From NCBI GenBank assembly GCA_903813345.2, contig CAIIXF020000008.1:35302867-35366866 (forward strand): a stretch of DNA of 64,000 nt. Direction: 5' to 3'. The stretch is from Owenia fusiformis (Eukaryota > Annelida > Polychaeta > Sabellida > Oweniidae). A program made the translations under genes and the position numbers. The notes under the pieces were generated by a model. It was not told the origin of the DNA, did no database searches, and worked only from the letters and a program-made list of their open reading frames with translations. Numbering within the stretch: position 1 is the stretch's first letter; each line of letters begins with the position of its first letter. Below are positions 25,301 through 58,959 of this stretch, in pieces.

Positions 25301-28300
25301 TGAGGAGATGAAAGGAAAATGTTCTTCTCACATAGTTTGGTATTCAATTAGGAGATGAACGCAGGATCAGGATCCGCGGAGTGTTAACTTGATTCAACCT
25401 GAGATAGATTTCTATTCGTCCAGTTCAGATAAAATATTATAAACCCTACATTATGTTTGAAACTTTAGAAATAAATGTTATACTTACACCCTCACCCATC
25501 GCATAGCAACCACCAACTTGGCTCGCAAGCTGTCCCTTGATTCTAAAAGTAAAAATCAACTTAGATATTTTTGTGAAAGATGAATACAAGCAAATTGAGC
25601 CAACAGCCACATTGTTATGTATTCTTTCTGATAGGGTAACGTTATAGTTTTCAATGATAGCAATACGTGATATGAACGTTTATTGAATTTTGAAGTTTGA
25701 ATCATGTGTAAAAATGCGGTTCCTAATATTTGGTCGTACTCTCCCCTCTATAGGCTTGGCAATAGAAGGCGTCCTTTTGGATCGGTTTTCCATCCTGTTT
25801 ATGTGTATCATCCAAATTATTGTCATGTCTATGGGTGTTTACCGAAATGTAACCATTTTCACCATTATTGGCCATTTATCACTCACCTCTTTAGTTTCCT
25901 AATGAACTCAAGACAGTGATATTTCTTTCCCTCCCTAGTTCTACATACTGTCATCAGCATTGGCTGAACGTGCATTGTTATATCAAGGATATACGGGTCT
26001 ACAATGAGAGACACATTCGACTTAGAATCAAGGATACAGGGTAACAAATGGAGGTCTAAAATATGAAGTACTTTCAAGCTAGAACCAGAGATACAAGGAT
26101 TAACTAAATTGCCTGGCTAAACGTGCATGGTTATATCCAGGATAAACGGGTCTACAACTAAAAATACTTTCAAGCTAGAATTAGAGATACAGGGGGTAAC
26201 AAAATTGGTTGAATTGCATGGTTATATCCAGGATACATATGTGTCTACACGGATACATTCAAGCTAGAATCAGAGATACAAGGGTTAAAACAAAATCTGG
26301 TAAACGTACATGGTTAATGGTTATATCCAGGATACATGCGTCTGCAACGAGAGATACTTTCAAGTTAGAATCCGAAATACAAGGGTTATCACAATTTGGT
26401 ACGGTTGGGAACATAAATAAATGACAGGTGGATCTATTCTATCACCATTTCCTAGCCATGCTCATCTGAAAGCCCATACTTTCCAATATTGTCTAGATAA
26501 AAGTTGTATATTTTACATTTTATATACTCTCACCCACTGGTATATGGCCTCTTCAAAATTCTCTTAATTTTAACACTGGAAATCCTCACTTCAGCAAATC
26601 CACCTGTCATTTATTTATGTTCCAAACTGTAAACGTACATGGTTATATCCAGGACGGGTCTAAAATGAGAGATACTTTCAAACTTGAATCGGAGATACAA
26701 GGGTTAAAGAAATTAGTTGAACGTGCATGGTGATATCTAGGATACACGAGTCTGCAATGTTACTTTCAAGCTAGAATCAGAGATACAGGAGTAATAAATT
26801 AGGTAAATGACTAAACGTGCATGGTTATATCCAGGATTCATGGGTCTACAATTAAAGATACTTTCAAATAAGAATCATAGATATAGGGTTAACAAAGTTG
26901 GTGAAACGTGCATGGTTATATCCAGGATACACGGGTTTACAATGAGAGATACTAATACTAGATACTAAGCTAGAATCGGAAATACAAAGGTGGTAACAAA
27001 GTTGGTTGAGGATACATGGTTATATCCAGGATACGGGTTTACAATGAAAGATACTTTCAAGCTAGATTCAGAGATACAGGATGTAATAAAATTGGGTAAA
27101 CGTGCAGGATTATTTCCAGGATACACGGTCTACAGTCAGAGATACTTTCAAGCTAGAATCAGAAATACAGGGGGTAACAAAATTGGTTGAATGGCATGTT
27201 TATTCGTATCCAGGATACACGCATCATGATAAACCATGACATCTCATTTCTTCTCAGCCCCGAGATGCCATGATATAATAAGCTTGATTTGGCGATCCAG
27301 GAGAGCCCAAAATTGAGGATTTTTGAGATCTTTCATCCCAGCTCATATTTCATCTAATTGGGGTCATTGAACGTGTGTACCTGTGCCTGTGCTAATATCT
27401 GCTGTTAAATACAATGCTGATTGCATGATAACTATCTCACTTATTGACAGTTATAACTCTTCCCATCTGATGTGCGCAGATCACAGAATATGCCTCAAAA
27501 TATCAGAGTATCAGAATGGGATACACGGGTCTACAAGGATACATTCTAGCTAGGGTCAGAGATAGAGGCGGTAACAAAATTGGGTAAACGTGCATGGTTA
27601 AATCTAGGATGTACAGGCCTACATTGAGAGATACTTTCACGCTAGAATCAGAAATACAAGGGGTAACAAATTGGGTAATTGTACGTGGTTATACCCAGTA
27701 AAAACGAATCTGCAATGAGAGATACTTCGAAGCTAAAATCAAAGATACAACCCAAGGGGTAACGAAATTGGCTCAACGTACGTCGTTATATCCAGGGTAC
27801 ATGTGTCTACAATGAGAGATTTTCAAGAGAAGAGGGATATACATTTGTGTACAGATGAATCTTGGTAGGGATATATATTTTTTGTATCGATGAATCTTCG
27901 AAGGAGATATATTTTATTTTAGTGTAGATGGAACTTGGAAGGGGAATACATTTTGATACAGATGCATGTTGAAGAGGGTTATACATTTCAAAATAGGGTA
28001 CATTTTTAGATAGCTGAATCTTGGAAGGGGAATGCATTTTTGTACAGATGCATCTTGGAGGGGGATATTACATTTTTATATTGATGAATCTTGGAAGGGG
28101 GATACCTTTGTTTACAGATGAATCTTTGAAGGGGCATACATTTCGGTACAGATGCATCTTGGAGAGGGGTATACATTTTATGTAGATGAATCTTGGAAGG
28201 GGCATACATTTCGGTACAGATGCATCTTGGAGAGGGATAAGCATTTTTATATAGATGAATCTCGGAAGGGAGATGTATTTTTTTAGTGTAGATGAAACTT

Positions 28301-30034
28301 GACAGAGGGTTCATAGACGATATCCCATTAATTTTGGGGGATTTTCTATGCGTGAATGAGTATCGACCATTTCAATGAGTAAGGCAGCAAAAGAATGGAG
28401 ATTTCGACAAGATGGCAAATAATAGCTCGAGCATTCATCGGATATCATATTTGTTGAGTGTAAAGAAATGAAAGACATAGAATATCATATTACTTTCATA
28501 TTTTGAGGAGTTAACAAAATAGTATCAATAGGATACGATTCGGATATCATGTCATAACATGCAAATACGAGTTTAGGAGCACAAATCAAATTATCGGGTG
28601 TTGTAATCCCCATATATCATATATATCCTCATGTATAAGTTTAGTATACATATGATAGATTTCGAAAGATAAATTGTGGAACTTGGGGAGCCGTTTCGGT
28701 ATCTAGGGTATGAATGAATCTTGAATGAAATCTATCATATATACTTACACTCATTTGCCTCAGTTGTCTTTTCTCTAAAGTTTTGCCAGTTGACGTTGAC
28801 AAAACTTTCCTGATCGGGTGTAGCGTAGCTGATGTTTCGCCATTCCCGAAATGCGTCGTCTAAACACTCAACATATCTGTAAATAGATTGTTAAAAATAG
28901 TATCAGTGATGGTATGTTAGTAAATAATCATTTGCTCTTCATCATATCTTTTTGTTTTCAAATCTAGAGAAGAATTAGTCTTTGTTTAAACTGCACATTC
29001 ATTTAGATTAAATATTTTCCATCATGGATCTTTTTCTAAATGGATATTGGTATACTCTAGTCGCATCTAAAATGCTCGTAGAAATTAATATATTAATATA
29101 TTATTGTATGTTGCACATTCTGTGAAAACCAGCTGAAGAGAATATATCAAAAAGTAAAATCTTAGAGAAATGTTATTAGAACTTTATAATCAACCCTCGT
29201 ATAAAAGAAATTAATGAAAATGTAGAATGCAATCAGGCACAGCCCAACCGTGCAGTCGTAGTTTTCTACGGGATTATTTGTAACGGCGAAATAACTAAAG
29301 GAATGATCCTTGATAATCAATGAGACCCATTACGTCAAATAGCCCCACTTTGATGGTTTCAAACGTTACCTTCATAGTGACCTTGTTACACAACATAAAT
29401 TCTATTTTATATAACCCTCTTCTCTTTAAGATTTCCCCCCATTTTTTCTTCAAAAATAGTAATTTCATATATTCTATTTTAATAGTTTTGGTGCTTTCTA
29501 CATAAAATCTAAGTATTCAGTACTAAGAATTATTGTATTTATAATTCAAATGGATTCATATGAAAAGTAAAAAATTTGCGGTTCATCTTCCAACGAACAG
29601 ATCATTATGATAAAGGAAACAATATATTTTTTATTGTAAAATTCAAATGCATTAATACATACAGTTAAAAGTTAGCGGGACATCTTCCCACGAACAAATC
29701 ATTAATATAAAGGAAACAATATAATATATTTCTGTGTAATATATAAAATATGATTATTCAATACAACATATACGTAACGTTTACAGTATACGTAATGCTT
29801 TATCCTGTGAGACATATTTTTAAAATTAAAATTGTATATTTCTAGTACAATAATGGTGAGATTGCGAAATCCGCCCGTGTAAAAGCGAATCGTGAAAGTC
29901 GACCGAAATAGCTTGAAATTGCTGCTAAATACGTCCATTACAAGACCAGAATTATGGATTCGTCATTACCTTGAAATTATTCGTCTCTGTTCATCTCTCC
30001 GCATGAGAAGAAACGATCCGTTCGCTCGAAACAT
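13311..30034 (-). CDS. Unrecognised large charged coiled-coil protein, six exons, ~1724 aa
   Basis: The minus-strand exons, in coding order, are 30034-29970, 28876-28749, 25947-25887, 25542-25488, 18435-13941 and 13681-13311. All are bounded by AG/GT, phases match, and they total 5175 nt with one terminal stop. The protein starts MFRANGSFLLMRRDEQRR. The small exons continue through REGKKYHCLEFIRKLKR and MGEGLRFDGKID into a 4.5 kb exon. Roughly, residues 340-1085 are a Lys/Glu-rich coiled coil. Inside it (about 728-805) is a 12-residue tandem repeat like EKQNAEEERKLI. A repeated VPRKxxFxPGPL motif lies near 1100-1150 and three GLPRPGQNPERI-type repeats near 1311-1351. A less repetitive, conserved-looking segment (GVVTFAQLHPSVQKQILIG onward) covers about 1450-1580. 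The last exon adds a basic Lys-rich tail ending KRVIGQ. No enzyme motif or signal peptide is seen. A structural or cytoskeletal role is only inference. The 61-bp exon has a weak acceptor and is the least certain. Confidence 0.8.
13682..13940 (-). other. Last intron of the coiled-coil gene
   Basis: The donor TCTG/GTAAGAAAA (exon end 13941) and acceptor TTTTGCAG/ATAGCCC (exon start 13681) join as phase 1. This replaces the 25 or so read-through residues after NRNES with DSPLSIEH and the 123-codon basic tail. Confidence 0.85.
18590..25350. repeat. 47-bp intronic minisatellite, roughly 130 units
   Basis: It fills nearly the whole intron between exons 25488-25542 and 13941-18435. The unit is near GATGAAAGGCCAATGATCAG then TTCTTGTAATAAGGTATTCA then ATGAAGA. 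Variant units (GTGATCAGTTCATG, GACGATCAG, CAAAGGATCAG, GATGAGGTCTTG, TATCGAATGAGGA) recur in patches, which implies higher-order duplication. Homogeneous core units run about 18840-25110. Edge units are more diverged on both sides. Confidence 0.95.
25960..27810. repeat. Degenerate ~92-bp satellite in the same gene's intron
   Basis: Around 17-20 diverged units contain CATGGTTATATCCAGGATAC, then TCTACAATGAGAGATACTTT, then CAAGCTAGAATCAGAGATAC and GGGTAACAAAATTGG. Two insertions interrupt it, near 26405-26632 and 27200-27510. It is much more diverged than the 47-bp array and therefore probably older. Confidence 0.85.
26405..26632. mobile_element. MITE inserted in the 92-bp satellite
   Basis: Terminal inverted repeats of about 27 bp, GGAACATAAATAAATGACAG followed by GTGGAT, occur at 26408-26434 and inverted near 26602-26629. 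The interior is about 170 bp and non-coding. Confidence 0.7.
27825..28310. repeat. ~33-bp intronic minisatellite
   Basis: About 14 units of a degenerate repeat near ATGAATCTTGGAAGGGGATA followed by CATTTTGTACAG. It abuts the 92-bp satellite inside the same intron of the coiled-coil gene. The short open frames on the minus strand here are repeat translation only. Confidence 0.85.
28877..29969 (-). other. First intron of the coiled-coil gene
   Basis: It runs from donor AAG/GTAATGACG (exon end 29970) to acceptor ATTTACAG/ATATG (exon start 28876), phase 2. No gene is seen inside. The segment nearest exon 1 (from about 29695) belongs to the unit duplicated at 38.99 kb. Confidence 0.8.
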
Positions 30035-30207
30035 GATATTTTGTGAAAATCCAATCGTCTCGAGTAAAATTTTAGATAAATATTGCTAGGAACCAAACAT
30101 AAACAAAGCCTGTATCTATGACGTAATCAGATGGAGAAGAGTGACAAAACAATGTAACTTCTGAAAACGGTGTGGTTGATAGGGTAATTGATATGACGTC
30201 ATCAGAT
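30035..30207 (-). promoter_or_regulatory. Promoter of first exon copy 1 with two CRE-like sites
   Basis: Upstream of ATG 30034 lie TGACGTAA (30119-30126) and a palindromic CRE TGACGTCA (30194-30201). Both recur in the duplicated copies at 39.4 and 41.4 kb, with the first always 84-85 bp from the ATG. The copy at 44.0 kb keeps only the first. No clear TATA box is visible. CREB/ATF binding is inference from the motif. Confidence 0.55.
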
Positions 30208-30395
30208 CAAGGAGGATTGGCTCCCAGAATGCAACACCGATATTCTGCAAAACAATCACCTAGCGATAGCTTTGTTGGAGAGTATCGGGTCATTCTCCAT
30301 GCAGTCGTACAAATTACACAGACACGAATAGCAAATGACGCATGCGTGGAGATTAAAGAATATCGAGTTGGAACCCTGGCTTCCAATCCTCCTTG
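30208..30395. mobile_element. 188-bp MITE with 9-bp target duplication (Mutator-like)
   Basis: The ends are CAAGGAGGATTGG and its inverse CCAATCCTCCTTG. TCATCAGAT flanks both sides (30199-30207 and 30396-30404). The paralogous segment at 41.44 kb reads straight through (CGTCATCAGATTGAG), giving an empty-site control. A 9-bp duplication fits Mutator-like elements. The insertion starts 6 bp beyond the CRE of the promoter. Confidence 0.85.
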
Positions 30396-30584
30396 TCATC
30401 AGATTGAGAATATTGTTATTCAGACCCCTTATGAGCATACTAGATAAAGTATTTACAAGGCGACCGAATGTCAATATTTTATAAATTACATCATAAATTA
30501 TAATTTGCTATTATACAGTGTAATACATTTTCGCTAGGCTAAAACATCATTTTCTATATTCTTCCTACCGTTGTGAAGCTAAGT

Positions 30585-31540
30585 TCACATCAACGGCGAA
30601 TACCACGCTTTAAATCGGTGAGCAAAGTGCCGTCATTTTTGTTTACTTTTCCAAAAATATCACGATATCCTAAGTAATGTTACGCTCTGATAAGATCCTA
30701 CGAATTAGTTGCCGCTTTGGGGGACGAATTGTTTCCCGACTTGTTACGGTTCCTCACGCTTTGACCAGGCTTTGTTACGCTTGAAAATAAAATCACGCTT
30801 TGATAAGCTTTATGTCGCTTTGATGCGATGATGACGCTTTAAATCAGGCTCTGATACGATTATCAAGCTCTGTCGTGCATTGTTACGCTCTGTGAAGATT
30901 TGTTACGCATTGGAAAATGCAGAGATCGCCGATTTCATGCCGCTTTTGATCAAGAGCCTATATAAAGATGCAGCAGATCCATAAAATCATTGCATCTTTG
31001 ATTCCAGAACACGATGGCAGAACAACAAGATCTAGAAGTTCTAGATGTACCAGAGCATGATCTATCTGAAGAAGACATGATGTGGTACTCAAGTCTCAGC
31101 GCTATTTATAGGAATGGAGACAGAGCATGGGTATCGTAGGAGAGCATGAAAGAACGTGAGAGAGCGTGAGGAAGCTTGGCAACCGTAACAAAGCCTAACA
31201 AAGCGTGTTAATCCTTGATCAAAGCGTCTCAATTCGTGGGAAAGCGTGAGAGTCCTTCATGAAAGCGTAACAAAGCGTGTCAGATCTTGATTAAAGCGTT
31301 TGACCTCGTGTCAGATCTTCATGCCAGATCGTAGCAAATATTGAGATATCTTAACGAAGCGTGTCAAGTGGTGACAGATCGTGAAGATTGGGGTCTCCCG
31401 CTTTGAACCAAGCTCTGTTAAGCTTTTCTACGCTTTGGGTCAAGCTTTCCTGAGCTTTTTACGCTTTGTTAAGCTGTGATACGCTCTCGGCGCTTTAATC
31501 AATTCGTGACAGAACGCCCAAAATTTTTAAACAGTTTGAA
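30585..31540. repeat. Cluster of degenerate ACGCTTTG/CAAAGCGT motifs with orientation switches
   Basis: Dozens of short quasi-periodic motifs occur. Block 30585-30915 has ACGCTTT/GTTACGC orientation, 31140-31385 has AAAGCGT/GTAACAAAGCG orientation, and 31399-31500 returns to ACGCTTT. The edges carry CGGTGAGCAA (30616) and its inverse TTGCTCACCG (31551). The first two blocks can fold on each other around the short reading frame at 31014. No transposase is seen. Confidence 0.7.
31014..31139 (+). CDS. Candidate 41-aa reading frame with a TATA-type promoter
   Basis: The frame starts MAEQQDLEVLDVPEHDLSEE and ends GDRAWVS. It lies in the only non-repetitive stretch between the oppositely oriented repeat blocks. 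A TATATAAAG box ends about 50 bp upstream of the ATG, so a Pol II start near 30990 is plausible. I recognise no family. It could be a micropeptide, the remnant of a mobile-element gene, or chance. Confidence 0.25.
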   Translation: MAEQQDLEVLDVPEHDLSEEDMMWYSSLSAIYRNGDRAWVS

Positions 31541-31541
31541 A

Positions 31542-32801
31542 TTTCTGGTGTTGCTCACCGTTTAGTATAAAAGGCCCGATCCCGGAATAATACTCAAGGA
31601 TTCACAGGCTCGAGGTCGTTGTGTCAACACCTCTAACTGTTATATAGCATAAGTATATTATAGATCGTCACATATTTATATAAAACGGTGATCTTTATTT
31701 CGACAAATCAATTCCACATTTATGGGTGAAGTTTCAGGATCTTCTATTTGTGTATAATAAGGAAAAATTGACATCTAAATAGCACACAGCTTGGTATATG
31801 AAATATCCTACAAATGAAACAAAGCAGTTCTAATACAAGGATTTATATTGGCTGTTGTACATATTCTTTGAACGCAATCACTCTATGGATAATGTTTTCA
31901 AAATCATTATAAACGGATTACTTTATCTCAAAGACAATTTCAATAAACTGGATTTTACAGAACTCCCCTTATTTCTTAAAAATGGACTGATCCAGTCGAT
32001 TCGCCTGGAGCCGCCATATTGTTTTTATACGGGATGCTTATCGGAACCCTTTAAAGCCTGTTCCAAATTTGTCCTAACTGACAGGTTTGAAATAAACATT
32101 ATTACCACCTTGCCGGGCCTGTTCTAGGGGTATTAGTACTAATTTAGAATGCATTTATTTTACTATATTGCCCTATGATGGTACTTTTTACACACTGAAA
32201 AAAATTATGGTAGTGCCAAAACCGGTCTAAAACATCAATTTTAAACGATTTTACGCCTTAAAGGGTTCCGATTAGCATCCCGTATAAAAACAATATGGCG
32301 GCTCCAGGCGAATCAACTGGATCAGTCCATTTTTAAGAAATAAGGGGAGTTCTGTAAAATTCAGTTTATTGAAATTGTCTTTGAGATAAAGCAATCCGTT
32401 TATAATGATTTTGAAAACGTTATCCAAAGAGTGATTGCGTTCAAAGAATACATGTACAACAGCCACTATGAATTCTTGTATTAGAAACCGGTTTGTCTTG
32501 CTTTGTTTCATTTGTAGGATATTCCATATGCCAAGCTGTGTGCTATTATATTACGTTATGGGGAAACTTAGATGCCAATTTTTCCTTATTATACACAAAT
32601 AGAAGATCCTGAAACTTCACCCATAAATGTGGAATTGATTGTCAAAATAAAAATCACCCTTTTATAAATGTGTGACGATCTATAATATACTTATGCTATA
32701 TAACAGTTAGAGGTGTTGACACAACGACCTCGAACCTGTGAACCCTTGAGTATTATTCCGGGATCGGGCCTTTTATACTAAACGGTGAGCAACACCAGAA
32801 A
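31542..32801. repeat. Large palindrome, ~520-bp arms around a 195-bp spacer
   Basis: The left arm (31542-32058) and right arm (32254-32801) are near-identical inverted copies with small indels. Each outer end reads TTTCTGGTGTTGCTCACCG in inverted orientation. Each arm contains TATAAAAGG followed by a potential start region, so two promoter-like sequences point inward at each other. Open frames inside (for example 31855-32127 and its mirror 32272-32511) are copies of one another with no recognised domain. I find no polymerase, integrase or capsid gene. Confidence 0.85.
32098..32235. repeat. Interspersed repeat forming the palindrome spacer
   Basis: It shares ATTACCACCTTGCCGGGCC and following sequence through ACCGGTCTA with 60733-60860 in the second P450 gene. 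The spacer is thus a separate repeat family rather than unique DNA. Confidence 0.6.
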
Positions 32802-33963
32802 CGAGCGTTCGATTTGCTAAACGATATGCGTCACCCTTTAAATAGCAGTGAAATTAGGGAGAGGATTTAACCATTTTGCTCAATAAACACATTTATATAT
32901 CATATCCGACAAAACCTTTGGTATGCATAAGTTAAGTATGGAATATATAACATATTTATGGGTCATTTGCTGGAATTACACCACAAAATCCGCTAAAACG
33001 TTTTAGTGGAAGGCGCTTTATAAAATCGCCATTCTGATTACACCAACATTTCTAAAGCGTCTTAGGGATTATATTTTGGAATTACACCTGTTTTTTCTAA
33101 AACGCCTTTCGTGCACTTTTAACGATGTAGTTATGGATACTATTCAGCATACATGTATGTGTACATCTCCTGTAAATGTATTCTTTTTGCATCTGAGACA
33201 AAACTGATCTTCCATAATTTGATTAAAAATGCATGACATTGCATAATTTTTATTTATCTTTTATTAATTATGAGAAAACATATAATAAAAAGGTAAAAGA
33301 AAAATATGTACATATTCTCTGAAGATAACACTTGATTTCGATGTGACCTGGCTACCATCATCCATTTTACAATTTAGATAAAGCCAGATAGCAGCGTGAC
33401 CGGATGTCTCATCATGTATCAAATGTCTTTATTATTTTTGAAAATCAACTCATCCTTTGGCCGGCATAAGCACATCTTGAAAAGATCTTGGCAAAACTCC
33501 ATAGACGAGCGGCCAGACAGGCTTACTTCATGAGAGAAGTGCAGGAACGCACAAGCAGAATAAAAAATGGTTTGGTTGCTGGGGCTCTTTGGCTTGCTTG
33601 GAACGACCGGAAAAGAACGTTCGATATGGGAACGTGAAAGATCGAGGCACTTTTTTGATTTCATTGTAGAAAGGTAATCACAGACCTACACTTGATGAGG
33701 AAATTGAACTTTAATTCGAAATATTGAACAAATGAGTTAAGTGTAAGCCTACAATGAACGTGCACGAACTGAATACATACTAAAGAACGTACTCATCATT
33801 ATGCATACGAATGGACGTAAACGTACCAATGTCCTCATAAATGACCTATCAAATAAACTTTTGGACGTAAATCTAACTTCGAAATAATGAACGGACGGAT
33901 GAATGACCAAATAATTACAATTTTACGAACAAACGAACGTATTAGAACAAACGTATAAGAAAC

Positions 33964-33995
33964 CAAGGACGTCAATCTCGAGATTGACGTCCTTG
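33964..33995. repeat. Perfect 32-bp palindrome
   Basis: CAAGGACGTCAATCTC is followed directly by its exact reverse complement with no spacer. The centre is CTCGAG and the sequence contains two GACGTC half-site clusters. It sits in a tract rich in GAACG/ACGTA motifs (33740-34010). Confidence 0.9.
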
Positions 33996-34414
33996 AAGAA
34001 ACCAAGTCAAGAAGGAACGTGTAAATGAAACAAATGCATCTTAATCATCGTTTAGATACCTCTTTAACGAAATAAATATACCACGTATACAGTGTACTAT
34101 ATCTTACGTTATTTAGCTTGCTATGTGACTTTTCAGGACCTGGGATAATGATGATTTCAGAAGAAATTTCGGAAATGAGGTCTTATTTCGTTTAGGGCAA
34201 ATGTTAAAAACTAGTAAAAACCCGGGTAAGGCGTCTTACAAAAACCGATCGGTATTACACTACACACTTAAAACGCCTAACGACTTAAGCCGTTTACTAG
34301 TGGCAAGGGTTCTTAGAGTTTTAGAAAAGCGCTTTTGTAAAACCGCAATCGTGATTACACCTAATTCTTAAACCTGGTTAAAACCGAAGAAGCTTTTGTA
34401 AAACGCCAGGTGTA

Positions 34415-34740
34415 ATAAGAAGCATCAACAGGCAAAAGCGTTCAGATATCAAAAGCATGATGATGGCGAGGAGACAACGCTGAAAGGGTCTCAAAATGAT
34501 ATTCAATATAAAATTGGGTATGAATCAAAGTCATACAGAAGTAGGCATGTTGCTAGTGGAAATAGTAACAGATTTGCAAATAGAGACTATAGGTATTATA
34601 ATGATGAGGAAAGTGAGAGGTGTTATGACAATCATGATGACTATGATGAAGATTATTGGTACAAAGATGAAAGGCATGATGATCAATATTATTCAAACAC
34701 CAATGATCAGAGAGATTGGTGGTCTGATAAAGGCTATTAA
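34415..34740 (+). pseudogene. LINE ORF1, C-terminal remnant
   Basis: The frame runs (N)KKHQQAKAFRYQKHDD through the Tyr/Asp-rich segment DDYDEDYWYKDERHDD to WWSDKGY and a stop at 34738-34740. It lacks a start because the element is 5'-truncated. It is probably the tail of the nucleic-acid-binding ORF1 protein. The overlapping Met/Ile-rich frame 34496-34831 is a shadow. Confidence 0.6.
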
Positions 34741-34856
34741 GCTTGTATGTAGATGTGTATATCCAGTAACTCATTTTAATGTTAAGCACAGTTACAATAG
34801 TAATTTCTTTATTGTTATTTTTATGTTATAATAGTATACAAGAATCTAACAGAACT

Positions 34857-37800
34857 ATGGAGAATGTAAATGGAATAAGGATTTCAACATTCAATGTACA
34901 TGGATTTTCAACATGTAAACCATTCCTGTACAATTTATTATCAACTGTAGATATTCTAGGAATTTCAGAGCACTGGGTATACAATGCTGGTTTATGTAAT
35001 GAAATGAGTACATTTCACCCGGATTTTGAATGTTTAAGTCTGTGTGCAAAGCGAGTATTTAAGATTGGTAGAGCGAGTGGTGGCATTGCTATTTTTTGGA
35101 GGAAATCTTTAAATCATTGTATTCAAATAAGTGATATTAATTTACATTTTGATGTAAATCATGTACTACATAAGAGAATTTGTGGTATAGAATTAACAAT
35201 ACAAGGGAATAGTGAGAAATTGTGCATTTTTAATGTTTATTTACCATCTAAGGATAATGACAATGGTATTGCATATTCAAATGCCTTAGATATCATTGAT
35301 AATATTATTGAAACTAATGATATGCATCAAAGATGCATTATAATTGGGGATCTAAATGGTGATCCTCGTGCTTTAAATAGTGGTAACCCTCAATCACAAG
35401 GATCACTGTTATCTGAATTTACTCACAGGAATGAAATGAACAGTGTCAGCTCAATACATACACTTAAAGGTCCTAGGTATACATACACTGGATATAATGG
35501 AACAGTTTCTTGTATTGATCATATTTTAATACCACATAATATGAACAGTCAAATAGTTGAAGTTTCGCATATAGAGAATCCTGTTAATACATCTGATCAT
35601 TTGCCAGTGAGAGTAATTTTGGAATTAAAGTGCAATTTCCAAAATTCTGAGAATATTATGCAGTCCTCTAAACTTGCATGGAATAAGGTGTCTAAAGATT
35701 TTATAAATGACAATTATTTTCCTTTAGTGGAATCTTTATTTAAGAGGCTGAATGAAGAGAAATCTATAGATAATGACAACACATTTGATAAAAGAAAATT
35801 CTCACCAAGTGAAATAGAGGAGTTTATGGAAAGTATAATTAAAAATTTTAATTCAGCTGCCAATTTATCTATACCTAAAATACGGTTCAGGAAAAAGAAT
35901 GGTAAACCCTACTGGAAATGTAACCCACTATTACCCCAGATAACAAAGGATAAAAAGATTGCTTATGATAACTGGTGTGCAGCGGGAAAACCAAGGGAAT
36001 CCAATAATGTTCTTTGGATTAAAATGAAAGAGTCTAAAAAGGCTTTAAGGAAAGCTTTAAGGCAAGCTGAGTATGAATATAACAAACAAATTGATATCAC
36101 AATTGAAGATGCTAGTGTTTCACAAAAAGACCTGTGGTATTTATTAAACAAAGGCAAGAAAATGTCAAGATTACCTGATGTTATACTTGATGAAGAAGGA
36201 ATTTTATTGACTGATGCTGAAGAGGTTAGGGAGTCATGGAAACAATATTTTGAGAAGTTAGCTTCACCTGACCAAATGAACAATATATATGATGATACTT
36301 TTAAATGTGCAATTGAACAGAGAATAAAGTGTATAGAGGATGAAACTGGTCATGATTCTCCACAATTTCAGAATGTTATAACTGTAGATGAAGTCAGGGA
36401 ATCCTGTTATAAGTTACCTAAGGCCAAGGCACCAGGTTATGATGGCATACCATATGAACAATTTTTGTATGCTGGTGATCACACTTTTAAAACTATAGCA
36501 TTTCTATTTAATATGTTGATTAATGAAGAATATTCACCTAAGAACTTTAAACGGGGTGTTATAATTCCAGTATATAAAGGAGGAAAAAAGAAGAAACTTG
36601 ATAAAGATAGTTACAGACGTATAACACTTCAATCATCATTGTGTAAACTATATGATGAGATTTTACTTCAGAGGGAATTGCGGTATGGTCATAGTTATCA
36701 GACAATATCAGAGTTACAGGGTGGTAATAAGATTAAATGTAGTTCTCTTCACTCATCCCTTCTTCTTCAAGAGGCTATAGCTCATAATGTTGAAAATGGA
36801 AGTAAGATTGTTGCTGCATTTTTAGACACAAAGAAGGCATACGACACGGTGTGGATTGATGGGTTATTTGCTCAAATATATGACGCTGGTATTAAAGGGA
36901 AATTTTGGAGAATTTTGCGTCAATCTTATATAAACTCTATGGACTCTGTTTTCATACATGGTGCAAATTCTGAATGGTTTGTTAATAGACAGGGTTTAAA
37001 ACAAGGTGGAAAGATCTCCATGTATTTGTACCTTTTATTTATAAATCCACTTATTAACTTGCTTGCAAATAATAACTCATGTAAAGTTGGATCATTAAAT
37101 GTGAGTTGTGTGTGTTATGCTGATGATCTAGCAATTCTAGCTATACACAAGAGTAAATTAATTGATCAATTAAAACTTGCTAATAATTATGCCAATAAGT
37201 GGCGATTTCAATTTAATGCTTCCAAGAGCGCAATTATGGTTTTTGGAGAGACAAAAAGTCAGAAAAAGAAAAGACAACACTCTGAAGGTACCAACATTAC
37301 AATTGAAAACCTTGTAATTAATGAGGAGAATTCATATAAGCATCTTGGTGTTAATGTTTATGCAAATAATAATTCTGATAAGTTGAGGAATGTTAATGCT
37401 ACAATAAGTGATGCAAGATGTAATTTTTATGCATGTGTAGGAGCCAGAATGAGGAATGATGGTTTAAACCCCCTAATACTTTCTAAGGTTTACCAATCTG
37501 TAATGATACCTAAAATGCTATATGGAGCAGAAGTTAGATCTTTTAATAAGCAGGAGGTTGAACTTTATGAAAAAACTCATAAACACATGTGTAAATCTAT
37601 TCAGAAGTTACCTCAGAATACACCAAATGATGCATGCTTGGCATTATTGGGGTGGAGAGGAATATTATATAATATTGAGCTATGTAAGCTAATGTTCTGT
37701 TTCAACATATTGTCCTTGGGTGCCAGTAATATTTATAGAAACATTTTTATATTTAGAGTGTTTGAATGTTTAGTGAATCATCAAGCAGGTGGTATTACTA

Positions 37801-38393
37801 AAGAGTATATTACTATTTTAAATAAATATAAATTGTTGGACAATGTTGTGAGCTTCATGTACAATGGTTGTATAAATATGTCAAAGTTTCTTTGGAAAAA
37901 AATATGTAAGAACAATGTTAGGGATTTTGAATTTAATAGTTGGAGACAATCTTTATCAATGAGTATTCAACTTCAAGATTTTAGAACTGTACAGTTGCAT
38001 GTTGACATTCCTTCTATCTGGTATTACTTAGGACTTAAACATCCTGAACTTAAGCAAAAATGTAATATGATGATTAAGTTGCTATTTGGTATACATACTT
38101 TAGAAATTAACAACCATGGTTTACCTAGAGAAAATAGGGAATGTAAGAAATGCAATAATAACTCATTAGAGGATCTTTATCATTTTATTATGGGTTGTGA
38201 TAATTATGTTGATATCAGAAAGATTATGATTGAAAATTTGATTAAGGAAAATCCTACATTTAAGATACTTTCATGTGAGGTATTATATAACATTATTTTA
38301 GGCATGGAGTTTCCAATGAAAAATTGGGATAATGTTTTGATTATTTCATGTAAGAATGTATCAATTATGTACCACAGAAGATTTTTTAGCTGA
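34857..38393 (+). CDS. LINE ORF2: endonuclease/reverse transcriptase, 1178 aa
   Basis: The chosen start is MENVNGIRISTFNVHGF (34857), because the 26 codons in frame upstream do not resemble an endonuclease. APE-like endonuclease motifs are FNVHG, ISEHW (catalytic Glu), GDLNGD and SDHLPV within about residues 1-240. The reverse transcriptase has KAPGYDG (near 525), FLDTKKAYDTV, QGLKQGG and CYADDLA with the YADD catalytic box near residue 752. A C-terminal Cys/His segment (CKKCNN...YHFIMGC near 1096) matches the putative nucleic-acid-binding finger of many LINEs. No internal stop occurs, so the protein may be functional. It nicks target DNA and primes reverse transcription of its own RNA. Confidence 0.95.
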   Translation: MENVNGIRISTFNVHGFSTCKPFLYNLLSTVDILGISEHWVYNAGLCNEMSTFHPDFECLSLCAKRVFKIGRASGGIAIFWRKSLNHCIQISDINLHFDVNHVLHKRICGIELTIQGNSEKLCIFNVYLPSKDNDNGIAYSNALDIIDNIIETNDMHQRCIIIGDLNGDPRALNSGNPQSQGSLLSEFTHRNEMNSVSSIHTLKGPRYTYTGYNGTVSCIDHILIPHNMNSQIVEVSHIENPVNTSDHLPVRVILELKCNFQNSENIMQSSKLAWNKVSKDFINDNYFPLVESLFKRLNEEKSIDNDNTFDKRKFSPSEIEEFMESIIKNFNSAANLSIPKIRFRKKNGKPYWKCNPLLPQITKDKKIAYDNWCAAGKPRESNNVLWIKMKESKKALRKALRQAEYEYNKQIDITIEDASVSQKDLWYLLNKGKKMSRLPDVILDEEGILLTDAEEVRESWKQYFEKLASPDQMNNIYDDTFKCAIEQRIKCIEDETGHDSPQFQNVITVDEVRESCYKLPKAKAPGYDGIPYEQFLYAGDHTFKTIAFLFNMLINEEYSPKNFKRGVIIPVYKGGKKKKLDKDSYRRITLQSSLCKLYDEILLQRELRYGHSYQTISELQGGNKIKCSSLHSSLLLQEAIAHNVENGSKIVAAFLDTKKAYDTVWIDGLFAQIYDAGIKGKFWRILRQSYINSMDSVFIHGANSEWFVNRQGLKQGGKISMYLYLLFINPLINLLANNNSCKVGSLNVSCVCYADDLAILAIHKSKLIDQLKLANNYANKWRFQFNASKSAIMVFGETKSQKKKRQHSEGTNITIENLVINEENSYKHLGVNVYANNNSDKLRNVNATISDARCNFYACVGARMRNDGLNPLILSKVYQSVMIPKMLYGAEVRSFNKQEVELYEKTHKHMCKSIQKLPQNTPNDACLALLGWRGILYNIELCKLMFCFNILSLGASNIYRNIFIFRVFECLVNHQAGGITKEYITILNKYKLLDNVVSFMYNGCINMSKFLWKKICKNNVRDFEFNSWRQSLSMSIQLQDFRTVQLHVDIPSIWYYLGLKHPELKQKCNMMIKLLFGIHTLEINNHGLPRENRECKKCNNNSLEDLYHFIMGCDNYVDIRKIMIENLIKENPTFKILSCEVLYNIILGMEFPMKNWDNVLIISCKNVSIMYHRRFFS

Positions 38394-38569
38394 TTTACCA
38401 ATGTATCCATTGTTATTTTGGGTCTAAATTTTGCCCATGTATACATGTATAATTCATGATATTGTTATTGTCTAATTAGCATAAGGTATAGCGTAAGATT
38501 GTTTTAATTGTCAAACTATTCTTCAGTATTGGAGGCTAAATAAATAAATAAATAAAAAATTCCAGCAAT

Positions 38570-38989
38570 TGAGAAAGACAAACGGTTATAATTATCTTAC
38601 AAGTTCATATTTATTGTTATATATGTTACCCCTACCCATAATTTTGAACTGAGAAGAGACCTCTCAATCTGAAGGATATACCTCAAATTTCATCACAAAG
38701 TTGTTGTAATTAATCGGACTTTCATTCCATATAGGACTTCTCATATTATTCATAACGTCAACTTATGGTAAAAAGTCACTTACTCACGATTTTGGGAGTT
38801 ATTCTATTAAATCATTTCTAACTTTTTACCATATTGAGGAAATTTTCTCCATTTGGTCAAAGTACACATATATTATATATCTGAATGTTTGGTATGATAA
38901 TAACGAAAAATATAAAAGATATGATTGATAATTTATCTTTTTTCTTTACAGAGGATATTATATTATAATTGCTGCACTTTTAGCCTGAT
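38570..38989. other. No gene seen
   Basis: AT-rich DNA between the LINE-bearing transposon and the second copy of the promoter/first-exon unit. Confidence 0.4.
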
Positions 38990-39283
38990 CATTATATAAA
39001 GGAAACAATATGATATACATTTCTGTGTAATATATTATTTATTATTATTCAATACAACATATACGCAATGTCTACAGTATAATACGTAATGCTTAATCAT
39101 GTCAGAGACATATAAAACTGTTTTATACACTGTATGTCTCTGATCACGTGAGCCAATTTTTAAAATTGTATATTTCTAGTACAATATCACATTCCGAAAT
39201 CCGCTGATGAAACGATTCTTGCAAAATACGGCGACCAAAAAGCTTGAAATAGCAGCTAAACAAGAATTATGAACTGTCATTAC

Positions 39284-39348
39284 CTTGAAATTATTCGTCT
39301 CTGTTCATCTCTCCGCATCAGAAGAAACGATCCACTCGCTCGAAACAT
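39284..39348 (-). CDS. Duplicate first exon copy 2 of the coiled-coil gene
   Basis: 65 bp on the minus strand, ATG at 39348, encoding MFRASGSFLLMRRDEQRR and IISR, with donor CAAG/GTAATGAC at 39284 in phase 2. It differs from copy 1 by Asn5 to Ser. The surrounding segment 38990-39505 aligns with 29695-30205, including CRE-like TGACGTAA (39432-39439) and TGACGTCA (39494-39501). It could splice to exon 28876-28749, some 10.4 kb away, as an alternative promoter. No downstream exon copies accompany it. Confidence 0.65.
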
Positions 39349-39775
39349 GATATTTTGTAGAAATCTAATCGCCTCGAGTAAAAGTTTAGATAAACATTGC
39401 TAGGAAGCAAACATAAACAAAACCCTATATATGACGTAATCACATGAAGATGAGTGACGAAACAATGTGGTGTGTTTGATATGGTAATTAATATGACGTC
39501 ACTAAATTTGTTTCTATGCTTTTCCAACACAAGGCTTCTCAACTTTTACTCATATAGCCTTGGAAAAAATCATAATATTTTTATTATATTCAATAAAAAT
39601 CGTGACGATTGAAATCTTTTGTATGTATGTACATAAATTAAGAAAAACACAAAACCACAAAACAAAATTTGTTCTTGAAAGTTTCAATATAACCAGTCAA
39701 CTGGTTCAGAAGCTGTCATCTTTTGCATTACATGCTCCAAGTAGCTGCAATTGAGACCAAGGCAGACCTGGATTC

Positions 39776-40333
39776 AAATGACAAAATTGCCAATTACCCT
39801 TACCCCATCCAACCCTTATAATAGCATTACATTTAGCGGTGATTGCCTTCTTTAAGTCAGCAATTGCCTGTTATTGTTTTGGTATACATTGTCTTTCAAA
39901 TAGCCCTACAAAAAGAAATCAGGCGGATTCAAGTTTGGGGTGTATGGAAATGAAGAGTTATCTGACCTATGGCTTATGATCCTGTTGCCAAAGTGTTAAA
40001 TTAGCAAATCAAATGAGTTATTCTAGGTATAGGGGGCAGCGTCATCTAACTAAAACCAAGGGCTGCCCAAAACTTCCTTATAGGATGATACTGTAACTGA
40101 TTTGTAGTGCCACTGAGTCGTAAGCCAGGTAGGTCAGATAACCCTTCTCCATATAACCCAAACTTGAATCCATCTGATCTCTTTTTGTCGGTCTACTTGA
40201 AAAACAATTTATACCAAAATAATCCTCAGACAATTGCTAACCAAAAGAAGGCAATCACTGCTAAATGTAATGCCATAACAAGGGTTGAATGGGGTAATAT
40301 ACTATAAGGGTAATTGGCAATTTCCCCATATGA
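39776..40333. mobile_element. Inverted pair of Tc1/mariner transposase tails
   Basis: On the + strand about 40107-40307 reads PYNPNLNPSDLF, LKNNLYQNNPQTI and KKAITAKCNAI, the end of a DDE_3/IS630-Tc1-mariner transposase. The segment 39776-40000 is the reverse complement of the same region, with damage in both arms. A CGGACACCCTGTA terminus at about 40475-40487 may be the right end of the element. The left end is not identified. Confidence 0.6.
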
Positions 40334-40793
40334 ATCCCCTCTACCTTTTGACTGGTTGTATTGAAACTTTCAGGAAGAAATTTCCATAGAACTGTTCTGG
40401 TGTGTGCAAAATTTTCTTGATGTCACTTGTCTAGTTTAGGAGATATTGCCCACTTCAATGGTCTCCTTTTTTCGGACACCCTGTATTATATCTGAGACTA
40501 ACACAGTTATGGTTGACAAGGTTGTCTCAGATTATAATCGTCATCTGAACTACTGTTTGTCCGCAAACGTTTAGATTTTCTGAAACATATCATGCCGAGT
40601 CAGTACTATTGACACACGTTTGTGATAAAAGTGTCATGGAAATTCCGCCTACGTGAAATAAAGAAAAAAGAAAAATCGTACCTTCGAGATTTCACCATTC
40701 TGTTACGAAAACGGATCAACGAATCCGTCTTGGTTCCTAATTTGAAGAGTGGAGTATACAGTTCTACAGTATTAAAGCTTTCGTTACGTTTAA

Positions 40794-41037
40794 AGGCCCC
40801 CTCACATATGAACGATTCCACCAGACGCAGTCTTGCGAAGTCAATTCTGGCGATTGGGAACGTAAACATGCGAACTGAAGCACATTTTTGCGCATGCTTC
40901 CGAAGCTTTCCGAGGGGGTACTTACATATACGAACACCCCAACGATGTATAACGTACACGTACTAATGGGAACGACTTTTACTCAATTCCTATTCGCAAG
41001 ACTGCGCTTAGTGAATTCGTCCATATGTGAGGGGGCC
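40794..41037. mobile_element. TTAA-flanked MITE (piggyBac-like)
   Basis: TIRs of about 30 bp (GGCCCCCTCACATATGGACG-like) at both ends are bounded by TTAA at 40790-40793 and 41038-41041. The interior is about 190 bp and non-coding. A relative lies at 48907-49073. Confidence 0.75.
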
Positions 41038-41210
41038 TTAAAGCTAGCATGATGCGCAACTTCAATCTGCCATCTGCGCTTTAAAGTTGTATATTTCTAG
41101 TACAAGATGGCGACTTTGCAAAATCGTGAATGTAAAAGTCGACAAAAAAGCTTAATATTTCTGATAAATACGTCCAATTAAAAAGAGAAGAATTATGAAT
41201 TTGTGATTAC

Positions 41211-41275
41211 CTTGAAATTATTCGTCTCTGTTCATCTCTCCGCATGAGAAGAAACGATCCATTCGCTCGAAACAT
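41211..41275 (-). CDS. Duplicate first exon copy 3 of the coiled-coil gene
   Basis: 65 bp, ATG at 41275, encoding the same MFRANGSFLLMRRDEQRR IISR peptide as copy 1, with donor CAAG/GTAATCAC in phase 2. CRE-like sites are TGACGTAA (41359-41366) and TGACGTCA (41433-41440), at the same distances from the ATG as in copy 1. The unit extends about 41080-41480 and represents the empty site for the MITE found in copy 1. Confidence 0.65.
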
Positions 41276-41479
41276 GATATTTTGTAGAAATCCAGTCGCC
41301 TCGAGTAAAATTTTAGATAAACATTGCTAGGAAGCAAATATAAACACAGCTGTATCTATGACGTAATCAAAGGAAAAAGAATGACTAAACAATGTATCTT
41401 CTGAAAAGATTTGGTTGATAGGGTGATTGATATGACGTCATCAGATTGAGAATATCGTCATACACACCCCTCAGGAGCA

Positions 41480-42425
41480 TAATAACAAGGCAACCGAAAA
41501 AGAAATAAGATACTCTTATTTTAAGAGATTTAGGTATTTTCAAAGGAAATTGTGACACATTGTAGAGGAAGATTATTACAATATCTACCAACTTTCATCA
41601 CGTATAGTCTAAACATGTTAAAGTTACGGTTGTTATGGTTACGGCTGTGAGAGGTATGAGCAGTTCCAGAACATCGCTAAAATTTGAAAATTGCTATAAA
41701 ATACAACCATCTTTCTCAATTTTTCACGAGGAATTCATTTCTGAGGTCCATTTCAATGGATCTCATATCCTTCTGGATATATCCAGTGCCACATTGTTAT
41801 AAGGGCAAAATGAGGAAAAAAACTTTAGGCCCACCTTGTCATATCCGCAGCTGAGCCATCAGATTACATACTTTTGATCATGTGACTTATAGTTATGATC
41901 ATATGACTAATAGTTATAACAATGTGGAAATAATGGGACAATCACTTACTAGTATACTTTGTTGGTAATTAACAAAGGAGATCATAAATCATGACACTAT
42001 ACATGTAGTCATGACAGTTGCAGGATATATTGTCATTCCACATTCTGGAGCAATTTCATCTCATAACAGTTAAATCTCTTGGAATGAGAGCATTTGTATC
42101 TTTACTTTCCGGACACCCTGTATGTGCTCATCATCCATCCGTTCAGCTCAGAGGTAGAGCGTGTACCAATTACCAAGCCCATCCGAAGGGGAAGGGCGTT
42201 TAGGGCGACCCCTCCCTCTTTTTCCAGAAACTTTATTTTAGAAATTTATATTTAATGATGCAAAATGGCTTTCAGGCTCAGAATACACCAGAGAGGGTCT
42301 AAATTCCAATGGCATGCCCCCAGACCCCCAGGCTTACGGCGCCCCGCGGCTGCAACGCTGTACATGGTCGTGCATCGCACATGCCTGGGGCGTTGGCGGC
42401 ACAATCCATCCGTACACGAAAGTCC
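41480..42425. other. No gene; solo transposon end and a tRNA-like A-box
   Basis: CCGGACACCCTGTA near 42110 resembles a right-end TIR with no left partner found. GCTCAGAGGTAGAGCG near 42149 resembles a Pol III A box. A B-box-like GTTCGATCC lies at 43032 in the same orientation, so tRNA-derived SINE debris is possible. Confidence 0.3.
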
Positions 42426-42980
42426 ACCCTATGCTTAGTGAGCGGACCTAATTTCAAGGGTGATGGTAAAGACGAGGCATGGCGCCCAAAAACCAAAGAA
42501 TATTAGTACCATAATCTTTTAAGTCGTATTATTGCAGCATTAGGTGATGATATTGTGATATTTTATGCTGTTTTAGAAGTGAAAGATGTTAAACTATGCA
42601 TACCGTTTGTTTTACATCCAATAAAACGAATAGTTAAGATGAAACAGTCGTTTAAAGATACAATTTGAATTTACCGCAAGAAATTACAACCTAATATTGT
42701 CAATATGTCAATAATTCCTGATCGATGTCACATATAAAGATATATGTACCTAGATATGTTTTATTTTTTCATATATGCGAAATAAGGCGGTCTCTAGTTA
42801 TGTACATCCAATACAAAATGAATGTTTACTATTCGGCGATCAGAATTTCGATGACGAGCAATGGCGATGTAATTTGCGAAGAAAGCATCAGTGCACCTAG
42901 TTACAGGCCAGGTTTGGGCGCCATGCATCGTCTTAACCATCGCCCTTGAAATTAGGTCCGCTCACTAAGCATAGGGTGAA
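42426..42980. repeat. Inverted repeat with ~62-bp arms
   Basis: The arms 42426-42487 and 42917-42980 are near-perfect inverted copies (ACCCTATGCTTAGTGAGCGG onward). The spacer is about 430 bp and non-coding by eye. Confidence 0.8.
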
Positions 42981-43059
42981 GTCGCCCCTTGAGAAATCCT
43001 TTTGATACGCCTGATTTCGCATGGGTCCCGTTCGATCCCCGGTTCGGGCACTTTACTTG

Positions 43060-43900
43060 TTGCGTTAAGTAGGCTACTTCAGGGTGTTTGACTGAATGGT
43101 CCACGACTTCGATATTTTTCTTGTATAGTCTTATTAAAGTCCGCAACCAAATCATGTATCGCATAAAACTTAGTAGATTAAAACTTACGGGGTATAGTCA
43201 TCACATGATTTTTATTTTTAATGACGCGCAAACTAGTTCCCGAGTTTACAATTATAATGGGATTTAAATAGTTATAAAAATTGATATATGCAAAGTATTT
43301 CTCAGCCAATCGACGAGGAGCATTTTAGTGCATTAGATTAAGGTATAGTCAACTGAGCAGGCTTTTTTTCCGCGCATTATTGTTTCATAATAAACTCACA
43401 CCCCATTCCCAATTCCCACCACGTCGTACAAACGGAACTGAACGACATACGTTTGGCGCCAACTTTGTAAGTATTCATTTATTTCAACGTTTAAACAGAA
43501 TATGAGCATTTCTTCCCCATGAAATTACCGCGCATGCTACACAGAGATGCCTCTAGGAATAGCCTGACTACGGTAAAGTCAGATACCGTTGTCACAAATG
43601 GCGGACATAGCTGTTGCTTCAACCCTTCAATCACTTGGTCTTCATTTTATAGGATTTTATCGTCGCTAATTCTGTGCATGCATTAACCTCTTGTGATAAT
43701 GTATCATATGAAATCTCATTTTCGATCAAATTGGCCGTGAATCGCCACAATATAGCGTCTTCGATATCCTCAATGACAATGTAATCTGAATTTGAGTAAT
43801 TCAGAAACTCGACCGAACGTCGCTATACTCGTTGCTCTATGCATAAACTAAAGGCTCTAGCCATCCCTCCTGTGTTTGGAGGTTGCAGGCTAGTTTTATT
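43060..43900. other. No gene seen
   Basis: Intergenic DNA between the inverted repeat and first exon copy 4. No repeat or reading frame could be interpreted. Confidence 0.4.
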
Positions 43901-43925
43901 CCATCGGGAACTACGTTGTCCTTAC

Positions 43926-43993
43926 CTTTCGATTATTCGTCTCTTTTCTTCACGCCTTAAACGAGGGAAAGAACCACCCGCTTGTAAGTTCAT
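43926..43993 (-). CDS. Diverged duplicate first exon copy 4
   Basis: 68 bp, ATG at 43993, encoding MNLQAGGSFPRLRREEKRR IIER, with donor AAAG/GTAAGGAC in phase 2. It shares the pattern AxGSFxxxRRxExRRIIxR with copies 1-3 despite heavy nucleotide divergence. That argues that the peptide was under selection. TGACGTAA lies 106 bp upstream (44099-44106). It is the farthest and oldest copy. Confidence 0.55.
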
Positions 43994-44260
43994 GATGATA
44001 GCCACAAGATTTGGTTATGTTGTCAAAATCCGTTCTTCTCCGTGGAATACCGTTTTAGAAATGTTGCTAAGTTGCAAATAAACACAAAGTTGGGATTATG
44101 ACGTAATTGAATAACCAGATATGACAAAACAATATGTTATCAGAAAACATAAAATTTCAATATCGGTTGGTTGGTTAAACGTCTTAACCTGGCACTGAAC
44201 GAAAATACTTGGAGTTTGAATGGTTTGGTGTATTCTTTTCTTCTATCTGTTACCCTCCCT

Positions 44261-47599: not shown

Positions 47600-47761
47600 C
47601 TTTTGTGTCACCCTGTAAAATCGATTAATATCAAAACCACTTTTTAATACGTGATAACAGGGAGAAAAGATCACGAGAGGTCTCAGTTTTTTAAACAGCA
47701 CTACATATAAGCGTAATAATTTACTTATCACATATACTGGGAGAAAACAGGTTCGTTTGAT
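47600..47761 (+). promoter_or_regulatory. Conserved upstream region of P450 gene 1
   Basis: About 160 bp before the ATG match the region before the second P450 gene (58790-58959). Shared blocks include GAGGACAACTTTTGTGTCA, ATCGATTAATATCAAAAC, GGAGAAAAGATCACG and TATACTGGGAGAAAACAGGT. The block ACAGCACTACATATA could act as a TATA-like element. Conservation may reflect only recent duplication. Confidence 0.45.
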
Positions 47762-58789: not shown

Positions 58790-58959
58790 CGAGGACAACT
58801 TTTGTGTCAATCGATTAATATCAAAACTACATCTGAACAGGTGATAACAAGGAGAAAAGATCACGGGAGGTCACATTTCTCAGTTTTTTAACAGCACTAC
58901 ATATACTCGCGTAATAATTCACTTGTCATATATACTGGGAGAAAACAGGTTCGGTGAAT
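58790..58959 (+). promoter_or_regulatory. Conserved upstream region of P450 gene 2
   Basis: It is homologous to 47600-47761 (see that entry for the shared blocks). It differs by small indels. For example, the ACCCTGTAA inserted after TTGTGTC in gene 1 is absent here. Confidence 0.45.

Follow-up and report, generated by a model that had tools for sequence, protein, structure and literature searches.

Tandem promoter-like blocks with tiny, near-constant coding first exons as candidate alternative starts in a four-gene family of the annelid Owenia fusiformis

The human UGT1A locus contains four common exons and, joined to them, thirteen homologous first exons that each have a promoter of their own (PMC9013439). 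Likewise, the sDscam genes of chelicerates and the clustered protocadherins of vertebrates contain tandem 5' cassettes with promoters that are joined to constant exons, and in sDscam the duplication of cassettes is combined with that of genes (PMC4835542). Recurrent duplication of a first exon is also described for hydra of Drosophila melanogaster, where at least four of the first exons are able to start transcription (PMC9013439, PMC2374699). Here, we describe a gene, named G1, on the minus strand of a 64,000-nucleotide stretch of the genome of Owenia fusiformis (contig CAIIXF020000008.1, abbreviated C8; the whole stretch is called the window), together with its three paralogs, G2 to G4. Upstream of its exon 2, G1 contains four tandem cassettes, each consisting of a promoter-like block and a short coding first exon; three are of a class named A (A1 to A3) and one is of a class named B (B1). 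We think it probable that these cassettes are four complete alternative starts of the gene, in each of which a promoter-like block is combined with a tiny, near-constant coding first exon.

The tandem first-exon layout is the same as that of UGT1A, but the exon copied here encodes 22-23 nearly constant residues. With sDscam, the present family shares the duplication of both cassettes and genes; however, the cassettes of sDscam, which in the scorpion described number from 2 to at least 40 per gene, encode immunoglobulin domains and generate isoform diversity, whereas the tiny peptides encoded here would mainly allow promoter diversity or dosage. Hydra resembles G1 to G4 in the recurrent duplication of its first exon. 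As far as it is described in the accounts cited above, hydra is expressed in the testis and confined to the melanogaster subgroup, with many copies flanked by DINE-1, and is classed under duplications of untranslated regions, unlike the present family, which has four paralogs, constrained coding first exons and two old classes. The subtype represented by UGT1A, the protocadherins and sDscam, in which the first exons diversify a protein domain, does not fit G1: the peptides of A1 and A3 are identical and that of A2 differs at one residue, although the class B peptide is distinct. Compared with the known tandem first exons, the new aspects appear to be the tiny size and near-constancy of the copied exon, and the arrays of differing make-up in all four paralogs. 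Our literature searches found the gene family named nowhere, but the queries were not specific to the family, so it may have been published before.

The first exon of each G1 cassette comprises the start codon and 21-22 further codons, and ends in a phase-2 donor that fits exon 2. When joined in silico to exons 2-5, cassettes A1, A2 and A3 give an open frame of 1642 codons, and B1 gives one of 1643 codons. A preliminary description of this locus, made from the letters of the window, had placed the four start codons, their donors and the common acceptor at the positions listed in Table 1, and had proposed that the four phase-2 donors fit one downstream exon; our results bear out both statements. 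The boundaries of exons 3 and 4 of G1 were set by alignment against the paralogs. Direct splicing of exon 2 to exon 4 breaks the frame, and it was the comparison with the paralogs that supplied exon 3. The product of exon 5 is coiled-coil-like as judged by eye, and the open frame of this exon measures 1523, 1609, 1681 and 2564 codons in G1, G2, G3 and G4, respectively, a variation that resides largely in repeats of the EKQKAEEE type. No Pfam match was obtained for exons 1 and 2 (64 amino acids) or for exon 5, no PDB match (E up to 10) for a 183-residue N-terminal query based on a model from which 18 residues of exon 3 were missing, and no Rfam match reaching the gathering score in the window.

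Searches of the genome (498 Mb, 525 contigs) with the first exon, exon 2 and the start of exon 5 identified the three paralogs. Together, the four genes contain 12 cassettes (4, 2, 3 and 3 for G1 to G4), nine of class A and three of class B, and genome-wide peptide searches detected nine A and three B copies, all of them upstream of the four paralogs and in gene orientation. Each cassette lies on the strand of its gene, 1-23 kb upstream of the exon 2 of that gene, with the distance reaching 15 kb in G1 and 23 kb in G4. At the DNA level, exon 2 matches the genome at four places, one in each gene (G1 included), and exon 5 has a single match per gene, in agreement with the earlier statement that no downstream exon is duplicated. 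The start codon, the open frame and the GT donor are kept in all 12 cassettes, and all 12 remain open when joined to exons 2-5 of their own gene in a common splice phase. The joined frame comprises 1729 codons in G2 and, with a 55-nt exon 4, 1800 codons for A1 of G3; cassettes B1 and B2 of G3 were joined only with an automatically chosen exon 4 of 46 nt, with which the G3 frames comprise 1797-1798 codons. An unfiltered search with profiles, run over 244 kb surrounding the four genes, recovered the 12 cassettes at E values of at most 3e-11 and no decayed ones; the next matches had E values of 0.23 and 2.2. The anatomy of tandem homologous first-exon candidates upstream of single common exons therefore fits all four genes. 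The preliminary description had proposed four alternative promoters that arose by duplication of the first exon alone. At the level of the sequence, it is indeed the promoter-like block and the first exon alone that are duplicated, but the gene in which this has occurred is one of four paralogs.

Table 1. Positions of the window gene, its exons and cassettes, and its three paralogs. Positions are those of the window unless a contig (C3, C5, C8) is given.
Feature	Position	Strand	Remarks
Window, containing G1	C8:35302867-35366866		G1 on the minus strand; cassettes A1, A2, A3, B1
Cassette A1, first exon	29970..30034	-	65 nt; MFRANGSFLLMRRDEQRRIIS + AG; phase-2 donor GTAATG; ATG 30034
A1, promoter-like block	30035..30201	-	TGACGTCA 30201-30194; TTACGTCA 30126-30119
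Cassette A2, first exon	39284..39348	-	65 nt; MFRASGSFLLMRRDEQRRIIS + AG; ATG 39348
A2, promoter-like block	39349..39501	-	TGACGTCA 39501-39494; TTACGTCA 39439-39432
Cassette A3, first exon	41211..41275	-	65 nt; peptide identical to A1; ATG 41275
A3, promoter-like block	41276..41440	-	TGACGTCA 41440-41433; TTACGTCA 41366-41359
Cassette B1, first exon (class B)	43926..43993	-	68 nt; MNLQAGGSFPRLRREEKRRIIE + AG; ATG 43993
B1, promoter-like block	43994..44106	-	TTACGTCA 44106-44099; no TGACGTCA within 230 bp
Exon 2	28749..28876	-	128 nt; common acceptor for all four cassettes; donor T/GTAAG (slash, exon end), phase 1
Exon 3	25887..25998	-	112 nt; identified via paralog comparison
Exon 4	25488..25542	-	55 nt
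Exon 5	13867..18435	-	4569 nt including stop; long Glu/Lys-rich part
G2	C8:36.50-36.51 Mb		cassettes A1, A2
G3	C5:4.63-4.65 Mb		cassettes A1, B1, B2
G4	C3:12.06-12.10 Mb		cassettes A1, A2, A3

The proposed start unit would consist of the ATG, the phase-2 donor and, ahead of them, some 110-170 bp of promoter-like sequence that contains one or two boxes of the cyclic AMP response element (CRE) type. One box, TTACGTCA, lies near the start codon, and the other, TGACGTCA, lies further upstream in most cassettes. In G1, TTACGTCA (plus strand: TGACGTAA) starts at positions -92, -91 and -91 in the A copies and at -113 in B1, and TGACGTCA starts at -167, -153 and -165 in A1, A2 and A3, respectively. 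The preliminary description had assigned both boxes to three of the four copies; this is correct for the three A copies, at distances that match the ends of the boxes, but the first box is also present in the fourth copy. Among the whole set, TTACGTCA is found in all 12 cassettes, starting between -91 and -132. Of its 15 sites in the 244 kb, counted along the gene strand, 12 fall at cassettes, so its presence there is not due to chance. TGACGTCA is present within 230 bp in 10 of the 12 cassettes, and is not found in G1 B1 or G4 A3. CRE-type boxes are binding sites of bZIP factors of the CREB/ATF type, and the cassettes may be controlled by such factors.

The conservation of the A cassettes also extends upstream of the exon. 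Pairs from different genes mostly align from about -150 to -200, through the exon, to about +70 to +360 in the intron. In an alignment on A1 of the window gene, whose upstream flank is replaced by a transposon, the nine A copies share a mean pairwise identity per 25-nt bin of 0.27-0.36 beyond -175; between this point and the ATG the mean is 0.68-0.83, and in the exon it rises to 0.88-0.93. Without A1, using two other reference copies, these values are 0.28-0.50, 0.61-0.82 and 0.89-0.93, and the step at -175 persists. The conserved blocks are candidate promoters, one belonging to each first exon. The transposon is a short high-copy element at 30208-30395 of the window, with 39-nt inverted ends (74% complementary), and adjoins the distal CRE of A1 on the upstream side. 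A1 is the cassette nearest to exon 2, and the element replaces its flank beyond about -173. The element is young: including the query itself, at least 42 matches in the genome are 99-100% identical (40 of 948 candidates scored). A1, with this element just upstream of its distal CRE, would make a natural promoter experiment.

Nearer to the start codon, nine of the 12 cassettes contain a T-rich tract ending in TAGCAA. The X-box consensus, given as RYYNYY N1-3 RRNRAC in the cited source (PMC2375033), has eight matches in six of the 12 cassettes against about 3.4 expected, with no place common to all; matches occur at the TAGCAA site in two cassettes and near -137 to -155 in four. The FOX pattern TRTTKRY has 21 matches in 10 of the 12 cassettes against 6.2 expected, an excess that may equally reflect the pyrimidine tract, given that the tract is rich in T and that all cassettes are homologs. 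The TAGCAA tract could contain FOX or X-box sites, as a ciliary (RFX/FOX) promoter would, or it may instead represent an AG-containing pyrimidine tract.

Two classes of cassettes can be distinguished. The fourth copy of G1, B1, matches two places in G3, and in cassette trees the A copies of all genes are separated from the B copies of G1 and G3 with a support of 100. Because class B is present in both G1 and G3, we infer that A and B had diverged by the time these two genes split. Over 18 codons, A and B show a synonymous difference of 0.61, whereas comparisons between genes give 0.33-0.56 in exon 2 and 0.35-0.48 in the start of exon 5; judged by these values, the divergence of A and B probably predates the whole family. 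Class B would have been lost from G2 and G4, or is present there unseen. The unrooted four-taxon gene tree has two pairs, G1/G2 and G3/G4 (support of 97 for DNA and 89 for protein). The peptide pattern kept by the diverged fourth copy had previously been taken to suggest selection. A constraint on the first-exon peptide is supported at the level of the sequence, but B1 is not a late, drifting duplicate; it belongs to an old class that occurs twice in G3.

The aligned blocks of the G1 A copies, exon included, are 75% (A1/A2), 85% (A1/A3) and 77% (A2/A3) identical, those of the G2 A pair 72%, and those of the G4 A copies 82-87%, while G1 A copies compared with G2 A copies give 70-78%. Differences of this size make it unlikely that the cassettes are assembly duplicates of one allele. 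In the exon tree, the A exons tend to cluster by gene (support of 94 for G2 and 81 for G4), which may be the result of recent duplication or of gene conversion. As for the B copies of G3, the whole-cassette tree joins G1 B1 with G3 B1 (96) and the exon tree joins G3 B1 with G3 B2 (80); the G3 pair may be older than the split of G1 and G3. The starts of the introns had hinted that proximal and distal A copies of G1 and G2 are orthologs, but the trees give this no support.

Constraint on the A exons is evident from the changes within genes. Six of these are synonymous and two nonsynonymous (hand count), in the comparison among first exons that the preliminary description had suggested, and under neutrality this ratio has a P of 0.003-0.011 for nonsynonymous shares of 0.77-0.70. 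Between genes, the synonymous difference of the A exon is 0.09-0.40 (about 14 sites), below those of exon 2 and exon 5 in five of the six gene pairs, for which extra constraint or conversion may be responsible. The peptide pattern AxGSFxxxRRxExRRIIxR, described earlier for the four window copies, is indeed found in all of them, but, by eye, none of the eight copies of the paralogs has it in the strict form, so the pattern is special to G1.

The interpretation of the cassettes as complete alternative starts has to be weighed against other explanations, and several results speak against it. It is conceivable, although we regard it as unlikely, that only A1, next to exon 2, works, and that the upstream copies are duplicates that have not decayed, or enhancers that give rise to no messenger RNA. 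A single neutral copy keeps its ATG, frame and GT with a probability of 0.68-0.23 across divergences of 0.05-0.2, and a neutral young duplicate stays intact with a probability of 0.33 at a divergence of 0.15. Moreover, G3 B2 appears relaxed, and of the changes between G3 B1 and B2, 3.5 are synonymous and 7.5 nonsynonymous, which is close to neutral. The counts of changes are small in general, and gene conversion could contribute to them. In addition, the A query missed the B copies and vice versa, and further-diverged copies outside the fetched stretches could escape the census. Finally, the CRE pair with its spacing was tried and rejected as a genome-wide signature: it gave 61 matches, four of which are cassettes, against 109 in the reversed control. 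On the other hand, all 12 cassettes are intact and none in the 244 kb is decayed, and class B has persisted since before the split of G1 and G3, whereas a neutral exon at a divergence of 0.5 was intact in 0.045 of simulations in which indels were ignored. For enhancers, a coding frame and a donor would be needless. The cassette copies look maintained by selection as alternative starts.

To a somewhat lesser degree, we also reckon with the cassettes being alternative internal exons, in which case an upstream non-coding first exon or a trans-spliced leader would be joined to an acceptor near the ATG and the CRE block would be intronic. In all nine A cassettes, a pyrimidine-rich stretch is followed by a YAG or AAG that lies 51-72 nt ahead of the start codon; the pyrimidine fraction at these sites is 0.73-0.87 of 15 nt, compared with 0.6-0.8 for the exon 2 acceptors, and TAGCAA, where present (9/12), overlaps the acceptor-like site. 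Furthermore, the best AG between -125 and 0 reaches percentile 89 or more in seven of the 12 cassettes. These acceptor-like sites keep the explanation by internal exons alive and have lowered our confidence in alternative starts. However, with an acceptor matrix for which the four genes supplied the 16 sites preceding exons 2-5, a small set from related introns, the upstream AG sites of the 11 cassettes that have one score at percentiles 22-86 of all AGs, below every one of the 16 true acceptors (89-99.9, leave-one-out), and no such site was found in G3 B2. Besides, TTACGTCA is present just upstream in 12 of 12 cassettes, and a box of this type in that position is more typical of promoters than of introns. 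When an A cassette is inserted as an internal exon at the pyrimidine-rich AG, after another cassette, seven of the nine frameshift into a stop, which fits cassettes that are used one at a time. Two further possibilities have very little to recommend them. The extra cassettes might start other transcripts, either non-coding RNA or those of a different gene, as their distance from exon 2 reaches 15 kb in the window and 23 kb in G4 and the intervening DNA is partly annotated, but all of them retain a phase-2 donor and a peptide that fit exon 2. Least credible of all is a mobile or dispersed promoter-bearing element instead of duplicates formed in place: the copies are spread over three large contigs, but every copy found is upstream of a paralog and in gene orientation.

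The introns and flanks of G1 contain a number of other elements. Between A1 and A2, a non-LTR-type (LTR, long terminal repeat) retrotransposon with an open frame of 1207 codons and endonuclease and reverse transcriptase matches is present on the plus strand (34770-38393). Intron 4 consists mostly of a 6.5 kb minisatellite (18725-25273) with a 47-bp unit in about 140 copies. Related arrays are found in intron 4 of G2 and G3 (among the matches listed, 80-82% identity between G1 and G2, and 72-74% between G1 and G3), so the minisatellite seems older than the split of these genes. Intron 2 (25999-28748) contains repeats with lengths of about 91-102 bp, and in some of these the acceptor and first bases of exon 3 are included; with one strict pattern, five such repeats were counted in G1, two in G2 and none in G3 or G4. 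It is possible that they act as decoy splice sites beside the real one. Elsewhere in the window, two similar tandem N-terminal exons of cytochrome P450 type are located on the plus strand, opposite to G1 (47720-48370 and 58918-59514), and a minus-strand fragment (2900-3301) has a DDE_3 match under the Pfam cut-off (24 versus 28.6 bits), which we take to be a remnant of a mariner-type transposase.

If the cassettes are alternative starts, extra copies would be transcribed, and a transcript from any of them would be spliced to the single exon 2. As the A copies encode nearly the same protein, copying them would multiply promoters and not protein forms, with a likely effect on the amount, timing or place of expression, whereas class B would provide another N-terminal peptide together with its own diverged block. 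Copy number may in this way alter the level, time or place of expression. More tentatively, and with more doubt than belief, we suggest that the number of promoters has itself been selected, such that the family gains and loses CRE-type promoter/start cassettes as dosage steps, with the old A/B pair giving two N-termini and the copies changing the amount or timing, not the protein.

Near-identical coding starts such as these may be collapsed in short-read mapping and in annotation. The tandem first exons of UGT1A, the protocadherins and sDscam are explained as a means of protein diversification, whereas the exon copied here is tiny and almost constant. The family, whose four genes have 12 cassettes that fall into two old classes and vary in number from gene to gene, would offer a natural setting in which to test the effect of extra promoters by themselves.

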